Shown here piece after piece: positions 54,634 to 64,000 of a stretch of 64,000 nt of DNA. Under the pieces are notes generated by a model that made no database searches, was not told the origin of the DNA, and saw nothing but the letters and a program-made list of their open reading frames with translations. The translations under genes and the position numbers were made by a program. How positions within the stretch are numbered: position 1 is the first letter of the stretch; each line of letters starts with the position of its first letter. Origin of the DNA: Deltaproteobacteria bacterium (GTDB lineage Bacteria; Myxococcota_A; Polyangia; Polyangiales; Polyangiaceae); NCBI GenBank assembly GCA_016875405.1, contig VGRJ01000005.1, positions 1 to 64,000 on the forward strand, given 5' to 3'.

Positions 54634-56028
54634 GTGTTTGCCAAGCTGATGATCGCCAACCGTGGCGAGATAGCGTGCCGTGTCATCCGCACTGCGAAGC
54701 GCCTCGGCATTCCGACCCTCGCCGTCTACTCCGAAGCCGACGCTGCCGCGCCGCACGTGCGCCTCGCCGACGAGTCGGTCTGCATCGGCCCGCCGCCGGT
54801 CTCGCAGAGCTACCTCGCCATCGAGCGGCTCGTCGAGGTGGCGAGCGCACACGGCGTCACCGCGGTTCACCCAGGCTACGGCCTCCTCAGCGAGAACGAG
54901 GCCTTCGCGAGCGCGCTCTCCGCGAAGGGCATCACCTTCGTAGGCCCATCCCCCGAGGCGCTCGACGTGTTCGGCGACAAGATCAAGGCGCGCGACGTGG
55001 CGCGTCGTGCGGGAGTCTCGCCGCCGCCGGGCACCGACGGTCCCATCGCAGTCGACGACGCAGAGGCTCTCGCGCGCGAAGCTGCTCGCATCGGATTTCC
55101 GCTGCTCGTCAAGGCAGCGGGTGGCGGCGGCGGGATCGGGATGCAAGTCGTCCAGAAGGAAAAGCAGCTCGCCAAGGCCGTCGCGTCCTGCAGCGACCGC
55201 GGCCGGTCGGCTTTCGGAGATCCGCGGGTGTACCTCGAACGCTACGTCACGACGCCGAAGCACATCGAGGTGCAGGTCCTGTGCGACGCGCATGGCAACG
55301 CCGTCGCGGTCGGGGATCGCGAGTGCAGCATGCAGCGTCGACACCAGAAGGTGATCGAGGAGGCCCCGTCACCCGCACCGTTCTTCGCGGGCGACGGGGG
55401 CGCCGCGCGACGCAAAGCGCTCCACGAAGCGGCGCTTCGGATCGTGACCAGCGTGGGCTACCGCGGCGCGGGCACGGTCGAGTTCGTCGCGTCGTCCGAG
55501 GGCGAACTCTTCTTCCTCGAGGTCAACGCGCGCTTGCAAGTCGAGCACTGCGTGAGCGAGATGTGCTCGGGTCTCGACCTGGTCGAAGAGCAGCTCCGCA
55601 TCGCGGCGGGGCTCGCGCTCTCTGATGCGGCCCGAAGCCACGAATTGCGCGGGCACTCGATCGAAGCGCGCATCTATGCCGAGGACCCCGCGAAGCACTT
55701 CATGCCGCAGCCCGGCACGTTGACCCGCCTCACGTGGCCGCTCGAGCGCTCGTGGCTCCGCGTCGAGGCCGGCTACGAGGAGGGCATGGAGGTCACCCCC
55801 TACTACGACCCGATGCTGGCGAAGCTCGTGGTCTACGGTGCTACGCGCGCCGAGGCATGCGCGCGACTCGACGAGGTCCTCGCCGAGACCGACATCGCGA
55901 TCACCGGAGCCGGAGGTCCTGCCAACACGAACGTTGCGTTCTGCCGAGCACTCGTCGCCTCGACGCCGTTCGTTGATGCCACGTATGACACCGCCACCGC
56001 TGAGGCCCTCGCCAAGGAGTCACGATGA
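54634..56028 (+). CDS. accC: biotin carboxylase (acetyl-/acyl-CoA carboxylase subunit)
   Basis: 464 residues from GTG 54634. It carboxylates biotin on the carrier protein using ATP and bicarbonate. Motifs: FAKLMIANRGEIACRVIRTA, AVHPGYGLLSENEAFA, KAAGGGGGIGMQVV (ATP-grasp glycine loop), RHIEVQVL-like KHIEVQVLCD, RECSMQRRHQKVIEEAPSPA, FFLEVNARLQVEHCVSEM and EARIYAEDPAKHFMPQPG. Catalytic Arg/Glu/Asn residues in the EVNARLQVEH region are present. No biotin-carrier gene accB is adjacent. Its stop overlaps the next gene (ATGA). Confidence 0.93.
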   Translation: MFAKLMIANRGEIACRVIRTAKRLGIPTLAVYSEADAAAPHVRLADESVCIGPPPVSQSYLAIERLVEVASAHGVTAVHPGYGLLSENEAFASALSAKGITFVGPSPEALDVFGDKIKARDVARRAGVSPPPGTDGPIAVDDAEALAREAARIGFPLLVKAAGGGGGIGMQVVQKEKQLAKAVASCSDRGRSAFGDPRVYLERYVTTPKHIEVQVLCDAHGNAVAVGDRECSMQRRHQKVIEEAPSPAPFFAGDGGAARRKALHEAALRIVTSVGYRGAGTVEFVASSEGELFFLEVNARLQVEHCVSEMCSGLDLVEEQLRIAAGLALSDAARSHELRGHSIEARIYAEDPAKHFMPQPGTLTRLTWPLERSWLRVEAGYEEGMEVTPYYDPMLAKLVVYGATRAEACARLDEVLAETDIAITGAGGPANTNVAFCRALVASTPFVDATYDTATAEALAKESR

Positions 56029-57758
56029 CCGACACGACCACCGTCGAGCGCGCGCGCGCGTGGCTCGCCCACGACCCCGACGAGAGCACCCGCACCGAGC
56101 TCGCAGCGCTGCTCGAGGCGAACGCACCTGACCTCGCGGACCGCTTCTCGGGTCCTCTCAAATTCGGCACCGCCGGGCTCCGCGGCGTCCTCGGGGCCGG
56201 AGAGAGCCGAATGAACCGCGCGGTCGTGCGGCGCGCGACGCTCGGCCTCGCCGCGTACCTGCTCACGAACGAACCCGACGCGAAGACGCGCGGCGTCGTG
56301 ATCGGCTACGACGGCCGTAAGATGGGCCGCGAGTTCGCAGAAGATACGGCCGCGGTGTTGCTCGCAGCCGGGATCCCGGTGCACCTGTCCGAGCGCGTCT
56401 GCCCGACGCCGCTCGTGGCTTACGCCGTGACGGCGCTCGGGGCGTCCGCCGGGGTCATGGTGACCGCGAGCCACAACCCTCCGGAGTACAACGGCTACAA
56501 GGCCTACGCGAAGAACGGCGCGCAGATCATCCCGCCGATGGACACGGGGATCGCCGCGGCGATCGAGGCCGGACCGCCCGCGGATCACGTCCCGCTTGCC
56601 GATCTCGTCGCAGCGCGAACATCGGGCCTCCTCAAGGACCTCGGAGAGTCTGTCCGACAGCAGTACCTCGGCGCCATCGCCGCGCTGATCGATCAGGGGA
56701 CCGGCGACCGCTCGTTGTCGATCGTCTACACGCCCCTCCATGGCGTCGGCCTCGAGCTCTGCTCGGAGGCCCTCGCGCGGGCCGGCTTCACGAACGTGCA
56801 CGTCGTCGCCGAGCAAGCCGAGCCGGACGGCGATTTCCCCACGGTCGCGTTCCCCAACCCCGAAGAGAAAGGCGCCCTCGACCTCGCGCTCGCGCTCGCG
56901 AAGTCGAAGGGGGCGGCGCTCGTGATCGCGAACGATCCGGACGCAGACCGACTCGCCGCGGTGGTGCGCACGCCCGCCGGCTATCGCGCGCTGACCGGAA
57001 ACGAGGTCGGTGTGCTGCTCGGTCACCGGGCGCTCGAGCGGGATGCTCGCTCGCCACGACCAGGCCAACCGCTCGTCATCACGACGATCGTCTCGTCGCC
57101 GCTCCTCGGGGTCATCGCTCGCGCGCGCGGCGCCGCATATGACGAGACCCTAACCGGCTTCAAGTGGATCGCGAATAAAGCCATGGAGCGAGAGGCGACC
57201 GAAGGGGCGCGCTTTCTCTTCGGCTACGAGGAAGCGTTGGGCTACAGCGTCGGGACCGTCGCGCGCGACAAGGATGGGGTCGGCGCGGCGCTCGTCCTCG
57301 CCACCCTCGCGGCCGAGCTCCACGCAGATGGGAAGACGCTCGTCGACGAGCTCGAGCGCATCGGGTCACTCTACGGCACGTTCACGAGCCGGCAACGCTC
57401 GCTCGGCTATCCCGGCGCGGAGGGCAGTAAGACGATGGCGACCCTCATGGCCAAGCTGCGCGCGGCTCCACCCTCCGAGCTCGGAGGCCTCGCCGTCACG
57501 ACTCGAACCGACTGCCTCGCGCAGACCCGAACGGACTCGACGGGAACGCACGCGCTGTCGCTGCCGAAGAGCGACGTCGTGGTGCTCGAGCTCGAAGGCG
57601 GGCACCGAGTGATCGCGCGACCGAGCGGGACCGAGCCGAAGCTCAAGATCTACGTCGACGTGCGGCTCCCGGCGGGGCCGCCGACCGAGGATGCGCGTCG
57701 CGACGGTGCCGAGCTCCTCGACCGACTCGAAGCGGCGATGGTCGCGCGGATGAGCTGA
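56025..57758 (+). CDS. phosphohexomutase (phosphoglucomutase/phosphomannomutase family)
   Basis: 577 residues. Catalytic Ser149 in VTASHNPPEYNGYKAY, metal-binding loop ANDPDADRL near 304, sugar-recognition GYEEALGYSVG and the C-terminal phosphate-binding RPSGTEPKLKIY. The N-terminal FGTAGLRGVLGAGESRMN is typical of the PgcA/PGM-PMM type of about 570-580 residues. It interconverts hexose-1- and hexose-6-phosphates. The ATG overlaps the biotin carboxylase stop (ATGA), a coupling without an obvious metabolic link. Whether the substrate is glucose or mannose is not decided. Confidence 0.9.
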   Translation: MTDTTTVERARAWLAHDPDESTRTELAALLEANAPDLADRFSGPLKFGTAGLRGVLGAGESRMNRAVVRRATLGLAAYLLTNEPDAKTRGVVIGYDGRKMGREFAEDTAAVLLAAGIPVHLSERVCPTPLVAYAVTALGASAGVMVTASHNPPEYNGYKAYAKNGAQIIPPMDTGIAAAIEAGPPADHVPLADLVAARTSGLLKDLGESVRQQYLGAIAALIDQGTGDRSLSIVYTPLHGVGLELCSEALARAGFTNVHVVAEQAEPDGDFPTVAFPNPEEKGALDLALALAKSKGAALVIANDPDADRLAAVVRTPAGYRALTGNEVGVLLGHRALERDARSPRPGQPLVITTIVSSPLLGVIARARGAAYDETLTGFKWIANKAMEREATEGARFLFGYEEALGYSVGTVARDKDGVGAALVLATLAAELHADGKTLVDELERIGSLYGTFTSRQRSLGYPGAEGSKTMATLMAKLRAAPPSELGGLAVTTRTDCLAQTRTDSTGTHALSLPKSDVVVLELEGGHRVIARPSGTEPKLKIYVDVRLPAGPPTEDARRDGAELLDRLEAAMVARMS

Positions 57759-57847: not shown

Positions 57848-59785
57848 TCACCCGACCGGAGCGCGGAGGGTCACCTCTTCGAGGCTCACACCAAGAAAGC
57901 GGCGCGGTCGTACCGTCACCACCACCGCGCGCTCTTCGACGGCGAGCGAGAGCTCGGGGCCTGGCGGAGGAGCGTTCTCGAAGAGCTCACCGAGCCCGAC
58001 CTCGAAGGAGCGACGCACGTCGACGCCATGGCCCGCGCGTGAGACGTGACGCCCCAGCCACTCGAGCGACTGCGCGAGCCGGGCGACGAACAGCTGATCC
58101 GTGAGCGAGGTCTGCGGGAGGCGCTCGGCCTCTCCGCTCGAAGCCCCCTCGTACGTGCGCTTTGGCGGCGGAACGTAGGCCGTCGTCGCCGTCGCGAGGT
58201 AGGCCGAGTCGCTGTTCGGCTGCGCGGCGAGCGCGGTGATGCCGATGCGCGCGAGGGCCCGCTGCGTCTCCGTCGAGAGGAAGGCCTCGGTCGGCACGGC
58301 GACGCGCTCTCCGTTGGATCGCGTGAGCTCTCGCACCGGTAGGTTCTCGAGGAGGCCGCCCTCGCGTGTCCCCGTAACGCCCGCAGGCCAACCGAAGCGC
58401 GCGTGGCTCTTCACGGCAAGCGCGCCGATCGCGTACGCGGGCCGAAGCCATACCTCGCCCTCCCCTGCACTCGCTGCCTCGACGACCGTCGCCTCGCGGA
58501 CTCGGGACGAACGCGCGTCGTAAGGGCCGCGGGCGAACACGCGGTTCAAGGCGAGACCGCACCACAGCGCGCTCGGGCGGTTCGCCTCCGCACGCCAGGG
58601 AGCGCTCGCAGGTGCCTCGAAGAGCGATTGCGGATAGTCGAGGCGATCGAGTTCCGAGAGCTCGACCCCGAGGAGCGCGGGCGCGGCGTTCGTCACGACG
58701 AAGAGCGCGTTTGCCTCCGCAACGCCGGCGACCTCGCGCAACCAAGCAAGCGACGCGGCATCACGCCCCACCTCGTGGTCGACGATGGCGAGCGTCACGG
58801 GAGGCTCGTCCTCTCCGGTCTCGGAGGCGACGCGCGCGAGCGCCGAAGGCGCCTCATCGCGAAGGCACGACAGCACCTCGACGTGCACCCCTTGCTTCGG
58901 CATCCGCCCGACGAGGAGCGCGAGGCCACGGTACGCCTCTTCGAGGCGACGAACCTCGGGGTGCTGGAGGATCTGCGCGAGCTCGACGGCGAGCGCCCGC
59001 TCGAGGATCCGAATCGCCTCATCGGGTCTCGCGCCAGGCTGCCCCTTGCCGCTGTGCGCCACCGCAGCCAAAAAAGCGTCGAATCGGCCCGTCTTGGCTG
59101 GCTCAGGCGCGACGCGCGGCTCGTCGTCGATGCCCCTCGATGGCGGCGCCACCTCGAGGTCGAGCATCCCGAGGATGCGGTCCGCGGCGTCATCGGCTCG
59201 AGGAGCGACGCGCGGCATGACGCGCTCGACCTTCGACGCTGGCACCTCGACTCCTCCGAGCACGCGAGCCACCAGGGGCGAGCCGTCCCAGCGCCGGGAC
59301 AGCTCGGCCGCGACCGCCTCGACGCTCGCCGCTCCGGTCCTGAGGTCCTCGAGGACGGCGCGACCTTCGAGCAGCTTGCGCAGCGGCACCACGTCGCGGC
59401 ACAGCGCATCTGGGCGGAGCGCGGCGAGCGAGCCTACTGGGACGTCGACGCGAGTCCGTGCGCCGTCCGCGAGTACGCTCTCGATCTCGATCGAGAGCCG
59501 AGGCTTTAGGGTGGCGAAGAGCGCATCGACCTCACCGGCCGCGAGGCGAATCGGGTGCTCCGGCGCGAGGATGCCGGCGTTGTAGTCGCGGTCAGGGACA
59601 AAGTCCCCCACGACGAGGACACGCATCGGCGGGATCATTCCGGTTACCTCGATCAAAGCGTCTGCTTCGTGAGCGACCGCGCGCGCGCCGTCGCCCTTGA
59701 CGACCTCCGCGACGGGCCGCGAGGGCCCGACGCCGAAGCCAATTCCACCAATCGTGAAGCCACCTTTGGGTTCGTCGCTCGACAC
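57848..59785 (-). CDS. TssB-TssC-like fused sheath protein, type VI secretion-associated
   Basis: 645 residues. After a Gly-rich N-terminus (GGFTIGGIGFGVGPSRPVAE), residues 52-150 resemble TssB: PPMRVLVVGDFVPDRDYNAG, then the SIEIESVL...RVDVPVGSL and RKLLEGRAVLEDLRTG segments. Residues 262-640 resemble TssC: ERALAVELAQILQHPEVRRL, EEAYRGLALLVGRMPKQGVH, LAIVDHEVGRDAASLAWLRE and a C-terminal region with ALARIGITALAAQPNSDSAY and the terminal VEERAVVVTVRPRRFLGVSL. A separate tssB-tssC pair is upstream on the same strand, across murI. The fusion may form a second sheath, a regulator or a baseplate adaptor. Its stop converges with the phosphohexomutase gene. Assignment rests on residue-level similarity seen by eye. 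Confidence 0.7.
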   Translation of the reverse strand: MSSDEPKGGFTIGGIGFGVGPSRPVAEVVKGDGARAVAHEADALIEVTGMIPPMRVLVVGDFVPDRDYNAGILAPEHPIRLAAGEVDALFATLKPRLSIEIESVLADGARTRVDVPVGSLAALRPDALCRDVVPLRKLLEGRAVLEDLRTGAASVEAVAAELSRRWDGSPLVARVLGGVEVPASKVERVMPRVAPRADDAADRILGMLDLEVAPPSRGIDDEPRVAPEPAKTGRFDAFLAAVAHSGKGQPGARPDEAIRILERALAVELAQILQHPEVRRLEEAYRGLALLVGRMPKQGVHVEVLSCLRDEAPSALARVASETGEDEPPVTLAIVDHEVGRDAASLAWLREVAGVAEANALFVVTNAAPALLGVELSELDRLDYPQSLFEAPASAPWRAEANRPSALWCGLALNRVFARGPYDARSSRVREATVVEAASAGEGEVWLRPAYAIGALAVKSHARFGWPAGVTGTREGGLLENLPVRELTRSNGERVAVPTEAFLSTETQRALARIGITALAAQPNSDSAYLATATTAYVPPPKRTYEGASSGEAERLPQTSLTDQLFVARLAQSLEWLGRHVSRAGHGVDVRRSFEVGLGELFENAPPPGPELSLAVEERAVVVTVRPRRFLGVSLEEVTLRAPVG

Positions 59786-59872: not shown

Positions 59873-60790
59873 ATGACGGATGGCGCCGGGCCAAAGGTCG
59901 CGGACAGCGCCATCGCTCGGCTCATCGAGCGTGTGGGCACCGATGCGCCGCTCGGCGTGTTCGACTCGGGCCTCGGAGGTCTCACCGTCGTGCGCGCCAT
60001 GCGCGAGCGGCTCCCGAACGAGGACATCATCTACCTCGGCGACAACGCGCGCGTGCCCTACGGGACCCGGTCCCCCGAGACGATCGTCCGCTACGCGCTG
60101 GGCTGCGCCCGAGAGCTCTCGAGCCGAGGCGTCAAGGCGATCATCGTCGCTTGCAACACCGTGAGCGCGGTCGCCCTCGACCGCCTCCGCGCCGAGCTGG
60201 ACCTCCCCGTCACGGGCGTCATCATCCCAGGAGCCCGGGCCGCTACGCGCGCGTCGGGTGAGGCCCCGGTGGGCGTCCTCGGGACGCTGGGGACCATTTC
60301 GTCGGGCGCCTACACGCGTGCGGTCGCGTCGTTCTCGAGTCGAACCGAGGTCCTCGGGCAGGCGGCGCCGCTGCTCGTCGCGCTCGCCGAGGAGGGCTGG
60401 ACCGAGGGCGAGGTGCCAAGGCTCGTCGTGCGAAAATACCTCGACTCGTTTTTTGGTCCCGAGGTGGTCGAGGGGTTCGGACTACCGCGCGCCTCGAAGG
60501 TCGGCTGCGTGGTGCTCGGGTGCACGCATTTTCCGCTATTTCGCGAGCTCATCGAGCGTGAGGTCCGCGAGATCGGCGGGCGCGGCATCCCGGTCGTGGA
60601 CAGCGCCCGCGAGACGGCGAGCGACGTCGAAGCGTTCCTGAACGAGCGCGGCATGCGCTCACGACGCGACGAAGCCGGCCGCCTCGAGCTGCTCGTCACC
60701 GACAAGCCGAGGAGCTTCGAGGCCGTCGCGTCTCGGTTCCTCGGCGGTGCGGTCGGCGGCGTCGATCTCGTCGATCTGAAGCCCGAGTGA
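59873..60790 (+). CDS. murI: glutamate racemase
   Basis: 305 residues from ATG 59873. It supplies D-glutamate for peptidoglycan. The two catalytic Cys are Cys94 in IIVACNTVSAVAL and Cys217 in VVLGCTHFPLF; GVFDSGLGGLTVVRAM and YLGDNARVPYGTRSPE are typical. The start was chosen at the ATG in front of homologous sequence; the frame is open from 59555. It lies between the fused sheath gene and tssC, on the opposite strand. Followed by a strong hairpin. Confidence 0.95.
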   Translation: MTDGAGPKVADSAIARLIERVGTDAPLGVFDSGLGGLTVVRAMRERLPNEDIIYLGDNARVPYGTRSPETIVRYALGCARELSSRGVKAIIVACNTVSAVALDRLRAELDLPVTGVIIPGARAATRASGEAPVGVLGTLGTISSGAYTRAVASFSSRTEVLGQAAPLLVALAEEGWTEGEVPRLVVRKYLDSFFGPEVVEGFGLPRASKVGCVVLGCTHFPLFRELIEREVREIGGRGIPVVDSARETASDVEAFLNERGMRSRRDEAGRLELLVTDKPRSFEAVASRFLGGAVGGVDLVDLKPE

Positions 60791-63143: not shown

Positions 63144-64000
63144 TTAGGCTTTCTTCGGAGCGAGGCGCAGAGCGGTCGCCGCGTCGAGCTGGCAGAGCCG
63201 CTCGAAGGTCGCCTCCTCTGCGGCCTTCGCCTCGGCGGTGGGCGTGCCGACGCTGTTCAGGCCTCGGTATGCGGAGTAGAGCGCCGCGTAAACTTCGCCC
63301 GCGAGGCGCGGGTCCCAAAGCGCGAGTTCGTGTCGCCGAATGATTTCGGTCAGCCCTTCGAGCTGGCTCTTCGCGATGTCGAGCTGGCCTGCGCCCAGGC
63401 AGAGCTGCGCTAGCGCGAGGCGGCCGCGGAACCGCTCCGCGGGCGTGGGAGCCGCATCGCTCGCCGCCATCACGACCGAGAGCGCCTTGCCGAGGTCGCC
63501 CTTCATCGCGTGGTCCTTTGCCTCCTTCAACGGTTCGTCGAGCACGCTCGGGGCGGCGCCACCACCACCGCCATCGGCGGCGAGGAGCGGCTTCACCTCG
63601 TTCTCGATCCACATCTGCGTCTGAGCATCTGCGTAGGGCGTGCCGTCCGAGAACTTGAGCTGCGGGAGGCTCGGGACCTTCTTCAACATCAAGGCGACCT
63701 GGAGCAAGAGCTCCTCCTTTGCCTTGAGGAACAGCGCCCCGAGGGCGGACATGGCCGTGGCGACGTAGCGCTGCGGATCGAGCCAGAGAATGAAGTTGCC
63801 GCCCTGGGTGTCCGCCTCGTTCAAGAGGGTGAGCCAGTCGTTCGACGAGGCGAGCCCATCGAGACGGGTCTTGATGTGCGCACCGGGCGCCTCGACGAGC
63901 GTACGCCCCTCCATCACGGCCGGTACCTGCGTGACCTCGAGCCACATGCCGAAGCGGCTCAGCTTGTAGGCCATCGGGTTCTCGGGCTTCTCGCCGCGCA
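63144..64000 (-). CDS. tssA: type VI secretion protein TssA (N-terminus off window)
   Basis: The frame is open through the right edge; the visible part is 284 residues and reads RGEKPENPMAYKLSRFGMWL, which resembles the middle of ImpA-type TssA proteins (the ENP.AY.L...W motif before the C-terminal region). It continues with LEAPGAH-like VEAPGAHIKTRL and the helical end MKGDLGKALSVVMAASDAAP, TPAERFRGRLALAQLCLGAG and AYRGLNSVGTPTAEAK. TssA proteins cap or prime sheath-tube assembly. The true start lies beyond base 64000; the internal ATG at 63974 is not the start. Confidence 0.85.
   Translation of the reverse strand, partial: RGEKPENPMAYKLSRFGMWLEVTQVPAVMEGRTLVEAPGAHIKTRLDGLASSNDWLTLLNEADTQGGNFILWLDPQRYVATAMSALGALFLKAKEELLLQVALMLKKVPSLPQLKFSDGTPYADAQTQMWIENEVKPLLAADGGGGGAAPSVLDEPLKEAKDHAMKGDLGKALSVVMAASDAAPTPAERFRGRLALAQLCLGAGQLDIAKSQLEGLTEIIRRHELALWDPRLAGEVYAALYSAYRGLNSVGTPTAEAKAAEEATFERLCQLDAATALRLAPKKA

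Follow-up and report, generated by a model that had tools for sequence, protein, structure and literature searches.

A one-chain TssB-TssC fusion as a candidate specialised sheath component of type VI secretion systems

A gene specifying a TssB-like and a TssC-like part in one chain was found beside a conventional tssC-tssB pair in the window, the whole stretch of DNA analysed here (64,000 nucleotides, positions 1-64000 of a 98.6-kb contig of a Polyangiaceae-like myxobacterium). There is hardly any doubt that its product is a sheath-family component of the type VI secretion system (T6SS), and it is probably a minor, specialised sheath subunit. The T6SS sheath is thought to be made from one repeating TssB-TssC heterodimer. 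The features of the fusion and of the genes next to it are listed in Table 1.

The fusion gene is a single frame of 645 codons without internal stops. Its GTG start agrees with the starts picked in the two nearest relatives, and inspection by eye revealed no clear Shine-Dalgarno sequence before it. In an earlier note on this DNA, a TssB-like segment (residues 52-150) and a TssC-like segment (residues 262-640) had been proposed in this frame. Both were recovered with close limits by Pfam searches: T6SS_VipA (PF05591, TssB) matched at residues 53-163 with 46.2 bits, placing the N-terminal TssB match above its cut-off of 24, and VipB (PF05943, the N-terminal domain of TssC) matched at residues 255-535 with 132.7 bits (cut-off 27). 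By alignment, the TssC half extends to the C-terminus at residue 645. PF18945 (VipB_2, the C-terminal domain of TssC) gave no match at E values up to 10, although structural alignments of the fold reach residue 634. The two T6SS families were the only ones in Pfam matching at E values up to 10, and phage sheath families were absent. The NCBIfam models for TssB (TIGR03358, E 8e-12, score 45.2) and TssC (TIGR03355, E 2e-36, score 125.9) stayed below their equivalog cut-offs of 97.25 and 271.5, respectively, indicating that both halves are divergent. In phmmer searches of the PDB, solved T6SS sheath proteins were the only clear relatives by sequence (TssC chains, E 3e-23; TssB chains, E 4e-4).

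Table 1. Features of the fusion gene and its neighbours (window positions; residues refer to the fusion protein)
Feature	Position	Strand	Evidence
tssBC fusion gene, 645 aa	57848..59785	-	ORF; Pfam TssB and TssC; 14-genome alignment; AF2 model
N-terminal tail, residues 1-52, low model confidence	59630..59785	-	AF2; conservation; sequence comparison
TssB-like domain, residues 53-163	59297..59629	-	PF05591, 46 bits; AF2 pLDDT ~85
Conserved linker island, residues 199-210, around ADRILGMLDLE	59156..59191	-	Linker comparison; conservation; predicted helix 201-206
TssC N-terminal/sheath core domain, residues 255-535	58181..59023	-	PF05943, 133 bits
Residue P396, aligned with VipB K223	58598..58600	-	Alignment
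Residue T505, aligned with VipB D333	58271..58273	-	Alignment
C-terminal gpW/gp25-like part and C-terminal strand, residues 551-645	57851..58135	-	Structural alignment
murI (glutamate racemase)	59873..60790	+	Gene call; named from sequence; conserved in relatives
Conventional tssC, 492 aa	60980..62458	-	TIGR03355, 710 bits
Conventional tssB, 164 aa	62461..62955	-	TIGR03358, 178 bits; start from gene call and sequence comparison
tssA (ImpA_N and VasJ)	63144..64000, on to contig position 64820	-	Pfam

An AlphaFold2 model built on an alignment of 14 sequences (mean pLDDT 73, pTM 0.73) showed two confident domains, with low confidence in the first 49 residues and in the linker (residues 179-235), where a short helix was predicted at residues 201-206. 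Foldseek searches of the PDB with this model placed TssC/VipB chains at the top and TssB chains next. In VIA-align comparisons, the model reached Z 29 to VipB/TssC, which identifies the T6SS sheath fold, and mostly Z 15-20 to the one-chain sheaths of phages, R-pyocins and eCIS. Since the latter alignments span model residues ~49-634, the TssB and TssC parts jointly correspond to a one-chain sheath protomer. These sheaths (e.g. 3j9q, 6rbn, 6j0n) likewise combine a TssB-like with a TssC-like part in a single polypeptide, but they show only about 10% identity to the fusion, which has no phage-sheath Pfam match and accompanies a two-chain sheath.

The conventional tssC-tssB pair is located 1.2 kb upstream of the fusion on the same strand, as the earlier note had stated, and the identity of both genes was borne out by their NCBIfam matches. 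The order is fusion (-), murI (+), tssC (-), tssB (-) and tssA (-), and the locus continues beyond the window end with tagF, tssM, tssL, tssK, tssJ, clpV and a gene for a transglycosylase with LysM, all on the minus strand. Further on follow genes for an FHA protein (with a T6SS FHA C-terminal domain) and a small protein, a single minus-strand gene, and then tssE, tssF, tssG and a CorA-like gene (+); tssL, tssF, tssG and murI were named from sequence and gene order. From this arrangement, the fusion is part of a complete T6SS that has an ordinary sheath pair of its own. The FHA and SLT-LysM proteins are encoded here by separate adjoining genes (contig positions 75709-78955). In the window's family, murI repeatedly lies next to the fusion, as does a phosphoglucomutase-like gene (56025-57758) in the genus; housekeeping genes constantly paired with a T6SS gene are odd. 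The same genome contains a second TssC-like gene (contig C16, 41984-43075), presumably part of a second T6SS, and no match to a second fusion was found.

The same two-domain frame was detected in at least 13 related genomes (31-60% identity) and is thus no chance feature of this one locus; the architecture extends through a large part of the window's order, with Sorangium cellulosum, Polyangium, Byssovorax and Labilithrix among its carriers. Outside the myxobacteria, where phylum names follow the record titles, fused frames were found in Candidatus Poribacteria (two, in tandem), Roseithermus, a Nitrospirae MAG, a deltaproteobacterial MAG and Azospirillum (one). Fusions thus occur in at least five phyla: Myxococcota, Rhodothermota, Nitrospirota, Desulfobacterota and Poribacteria. 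In genome contigs they were found by a profile scan, a single-sequence scan having given no matches. Apparent fusions with one stop inside and a match length of tssB plus tssC were rejected as ordinary tssB-tssC neighbours in one frame. Of the ten annotated plasmid records listed, almost all have tssC and tssB as separate genes. T6SS loci with a fusion generally have one copy of it and one conventional tssB-tssC pair, and each of the ten named fusion genomes checked also has a conventional tssC and an unfused tssB. Among 61 genomes sampled from the phylum of Roseithermus, both the fusion and the conventional pair are present in four, and neither of them in the remaining 57. About 20 of 35 relatives of the window have the fusion, and so do approximately three of eight Nitrospirae, four of eight deltaproteobacterial and one of two Poribacteria T6SS-positive genomes sampled, the last three counts being rough, since they were taken from match tables with partial matches included. 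T6SS loci without a fusion therefore exist in the same groups, so that a ring formed by the fusion is not something every T6SS needs. The two Poribacteria fusions (DTPJ01000357.1, L100:1484-4984) are different from each other and comprise 542 and 612 aa; the first is without the linker motif and is basal within the clade of fusions. The Azospirillum fusion, from a MAG (L134:1332-3236), lies upstream of tssE-tssF-tssG.

A tree was calculated from the TssC parts of 75 sequences, the TssB part being too short for a decisive tree. In total, 27 fusions from five phyla fell on one side of a branch with 100/100 support, with conventional TssC and ImpD on the other side, where the conventional TssC proteins of most fusion-bearing genomes cluster. 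This topology fits one old fusion that was kept as a separate paralogue, while the exact placement of several fusions is unsure because of long branches. The Azospirillum fusion, which keeps the TssB-type N-terminal arm, groups with ImpD-type TssC and probably represents a second, independent fusion event, but an AU test also allows a single fusion clade (p 0.18). The fusion evolves much faster than the conventional genes, its identity to the nearest relative within the genus being 60% as compared to 95-98% for tssC and tssB. Its dN/dS values of 0.15-0.47, rough since dS is near saturation, indicate purifying selection.

The closest precedent in print is Agrobacterium's additional TssC, TssC40/ImpD, a divergent protein that is indispensable for the secretion of Hcp and has a role non-redundant with that of TssC41 (PMC3702570). 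Both are extra, fast-evolving TssC-like proteins beside a normal TssB-TssC pair. An identity of the two was nevertheless rejected, since ImpD-type proteins have no TssB-domain match and fall elsewhere in the tree, as one clade among alphaproteobacterial and planctomycete TssC; a single Azospirillum protein is an ImpD-like fusion. With TssB/TssC as known from other systems (VipA/VipB, HsiB/HsiC, IglA/IglB), the fusion shares both domains, their order, the sheath fold and the location in a T6SS locus, and it has a predicted short helix in the linker that may correspond to the helix by which TssC binds ClpV. It differs from them in being one chain, in forming a separate old clade, in scoring under both NCBIfam cut-offs, and in that the acid corresponding to D333 and an N-terminal arm of fixed length are mostly missing. 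Domains, structure and phylogeny thus support the suggestion of the earlier note that this is a second, covalently joined sheath-like protein, and the structure prediction and superposition it had called for gave the sheath fold. The open-access literature searched contained no account of a naturally occurring fusion of TssB and TssC.

Most fusions differ from conventional sheath proteins at sites involved in contraction. In conventional TssB, the spacing from the handshake strand (RVNI-type) to the core is almost always 17 residues. The N-terminal tail of the window fusion carries a conserved KGGF..GGIGFG motif, followed by a stretch of variable length in place of the handshake arm. Several lineages are armless, with 0-9 residues before the core, and others have a segment of variable length; in the window fusion, 51 residues precede the core, and the 17-residue spacing of TssB is absent. 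A strand-like N-terminus at TssB-like spacing is retained in the fusions of Sorangium and its relatives. In Vibrio cholerae, lengthening the N-terminal linker of VipA by at least two residues abolishes contraction and locks the sheath in the extended state, and contraction is also abolished by removing the charge of VipB D333 (PMC5797969). At the latter position, an acid is found in all 40 conventional TssC proteins but in only nine of 28 fusions, the window fusion having a threonine (T505). The position of K223 is basic in 32 of the 40 conventional proteins versus six of the 28 fusions. Sequences added later gave a similar picture, with an acid in seven of seven conventional proteins versus two of five fusions at position 333, and a basic residue in seven of seven versus none of five at position 223. 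The lysine is kept in the Nitrospirae fusion and in the second Poribacteria fusion, and several fusions keep the acid at 333. In the linker, a conserved island (LDxLLxMVDxG) is located where TssC has its N-terminal ClpV-binding helix (SLLDEIL); in one Nitrospirota fusion it reads LLDHILEQ, which is close to TssC. Judged from its sequence, the island would be the equivalent of the ClpV-binding helix, and the helix type seems to be kept.

The gene-neighbour survey in related genomes placed the fusion in full T6SS loci with recurrent neighbours for FHA, transglycosylase and kinase proteins. Each of the four T6SS-bearing Rhodothermota has, immediately after the fusion, a gene for a protein joining FHA and transglycosylase (SLT) domains (L258:8216-9850, L259:4960-8082, L263:11575-14766 and L192:10360-11961). 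Genes for a PP2C phosphatase and a Ser/Thr kinase come next in three of these loci, whereas the Roseithermus locus has them at another place; both assignments were checked with Pfam in one genome. In Myxococcota, the order FHA, small protein or lipoprotein, fusion recurs, whereas in the window's genus the fusion sits away from FHA. None of the FHA, transglycosylase, kinase and phosphatase genes was found nearby in two fusion-free Nitrospirota T6SS loci (G577, G609), while FHA is present in the fusion-free T6SS locus of G048. Gene order is suggestive of an association of the fusion with these neighbours. FHA, kinase and phosphatase constitute the threonine phosphorylation pathway of other T6SS (PMC3953482). 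In one genome (G494, L200:7079-16408), the fusion is separated from the core T6SS genes, with a transglycosylase gene on one side and, further on at the other, large Rhs-like genes that are possible effectors.

We consider that the best explanation, although its chance falls a little short of even, is a one-chain protomer that is a minor component of the same T6SS and forms a non-contracting end ring, preferably on the baseplate side. The bulk of the sheath would be built by the conventional TssB-TssC pair. The fusion would present the sheath fold and its C-terminal strand to the next ring, and the normal sheath would be assembled on it. Having neither a normal N-terminal arm nor the contraction-stabilising acid, it would take part neither in the polymerisation of a long sheath nor in the relay of contraction, and its linker helix of the TssC type could allow recycling by ClpV, a recognition predicted from the motif. 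In the published model of contraction, ring 1 pulls the linker of ring 2 (PMC5797969), so that the most fitting place for an armless protomer is the lowest ring, directly on the baseplate. The choice of the baseplate over the other end would follow solely from this published direction of the VipA linker, and a baseplate-side ring as such is put forward tentatively, whereas a minor or terminal position of either kind is what we infer from the data as a whole. The short collar or assembly regulator considered in the earlier note may come close to this terminal or adaptor ring. A further-reaching version is rather speculative: the fusion would define an undescribed T6SS family in five phyla, would form a non-contracting ring that adapts the sheath to the baseplate, and would be placed under threonine-phosphorylation control by the FHA, transglycosylase and kinase neighbours.

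The chief rivals are a distal cap and a phosphorylation-controlled regulator. As a cap or chain terminator, the fusion would join the growing (TssA) end and halt sheath growth or set its length. The arm and charge data agree with this as well as with an end ring at the baseplate, and the fusion adjoins tssA in G487, while the tssB near the fusion in the window is followed by tssA. From the linker direction in the published model, however, an armless protomer is expected to dock poorly on the ring below, and TssA itself is also present in the fusion loci, which makes a cap unlikely. Still less is to be expected of a regulator or licensing factor, a sheath mimic that would bind sheath or baseplate under the control of FHA, kinase and phosphatase. 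The gene order in the Rhodothermota and the recurring arrangement in Myxococcota speak for it, but the position of the fusion in the window's genus and the FHA gene in the fusion-free locus of G048 do not.

A different contractile apparatus had also been proposed in the earlier note, in which the fusion would build its own sheath around a tube. The complete one-chain protomer fold, resembling phage and R-pyocin sheaths, and the tandem fusions of Poribacteria would agree with such a machine. It is disfavoured and appears improbable, since no second baseplate or ClpV gene lies beside the fusion in the loci read and the contraction charges and the arm are lost in most members; in addition, the fusion as a rule occurs once per locus with one conventional pair, was accompanied by that pair in every named genome checked, and changes at a far higher rate than the genes of the bulk sheath. 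Scores under the NCBIfam cut-offs and fast evolution could also indicate a degenerating, functionless paralogue of tssB-tssC, but the gene is intact in many genomes of five phyla as one old clade, its dN/dS is well below 1 and its gene order recurs, so that this explanation is very hard to uphold.

If the fusion is a specialised third sheath protein, some T6SS would have specialised sheath positions, comparable to PVC and AFP particles, which contain several sheath proteins (PMC8894135). It would then offer a handle on how the sheath joins the baseplate, starts and ends, and it may serve structural work as a natural one-chain protomer.
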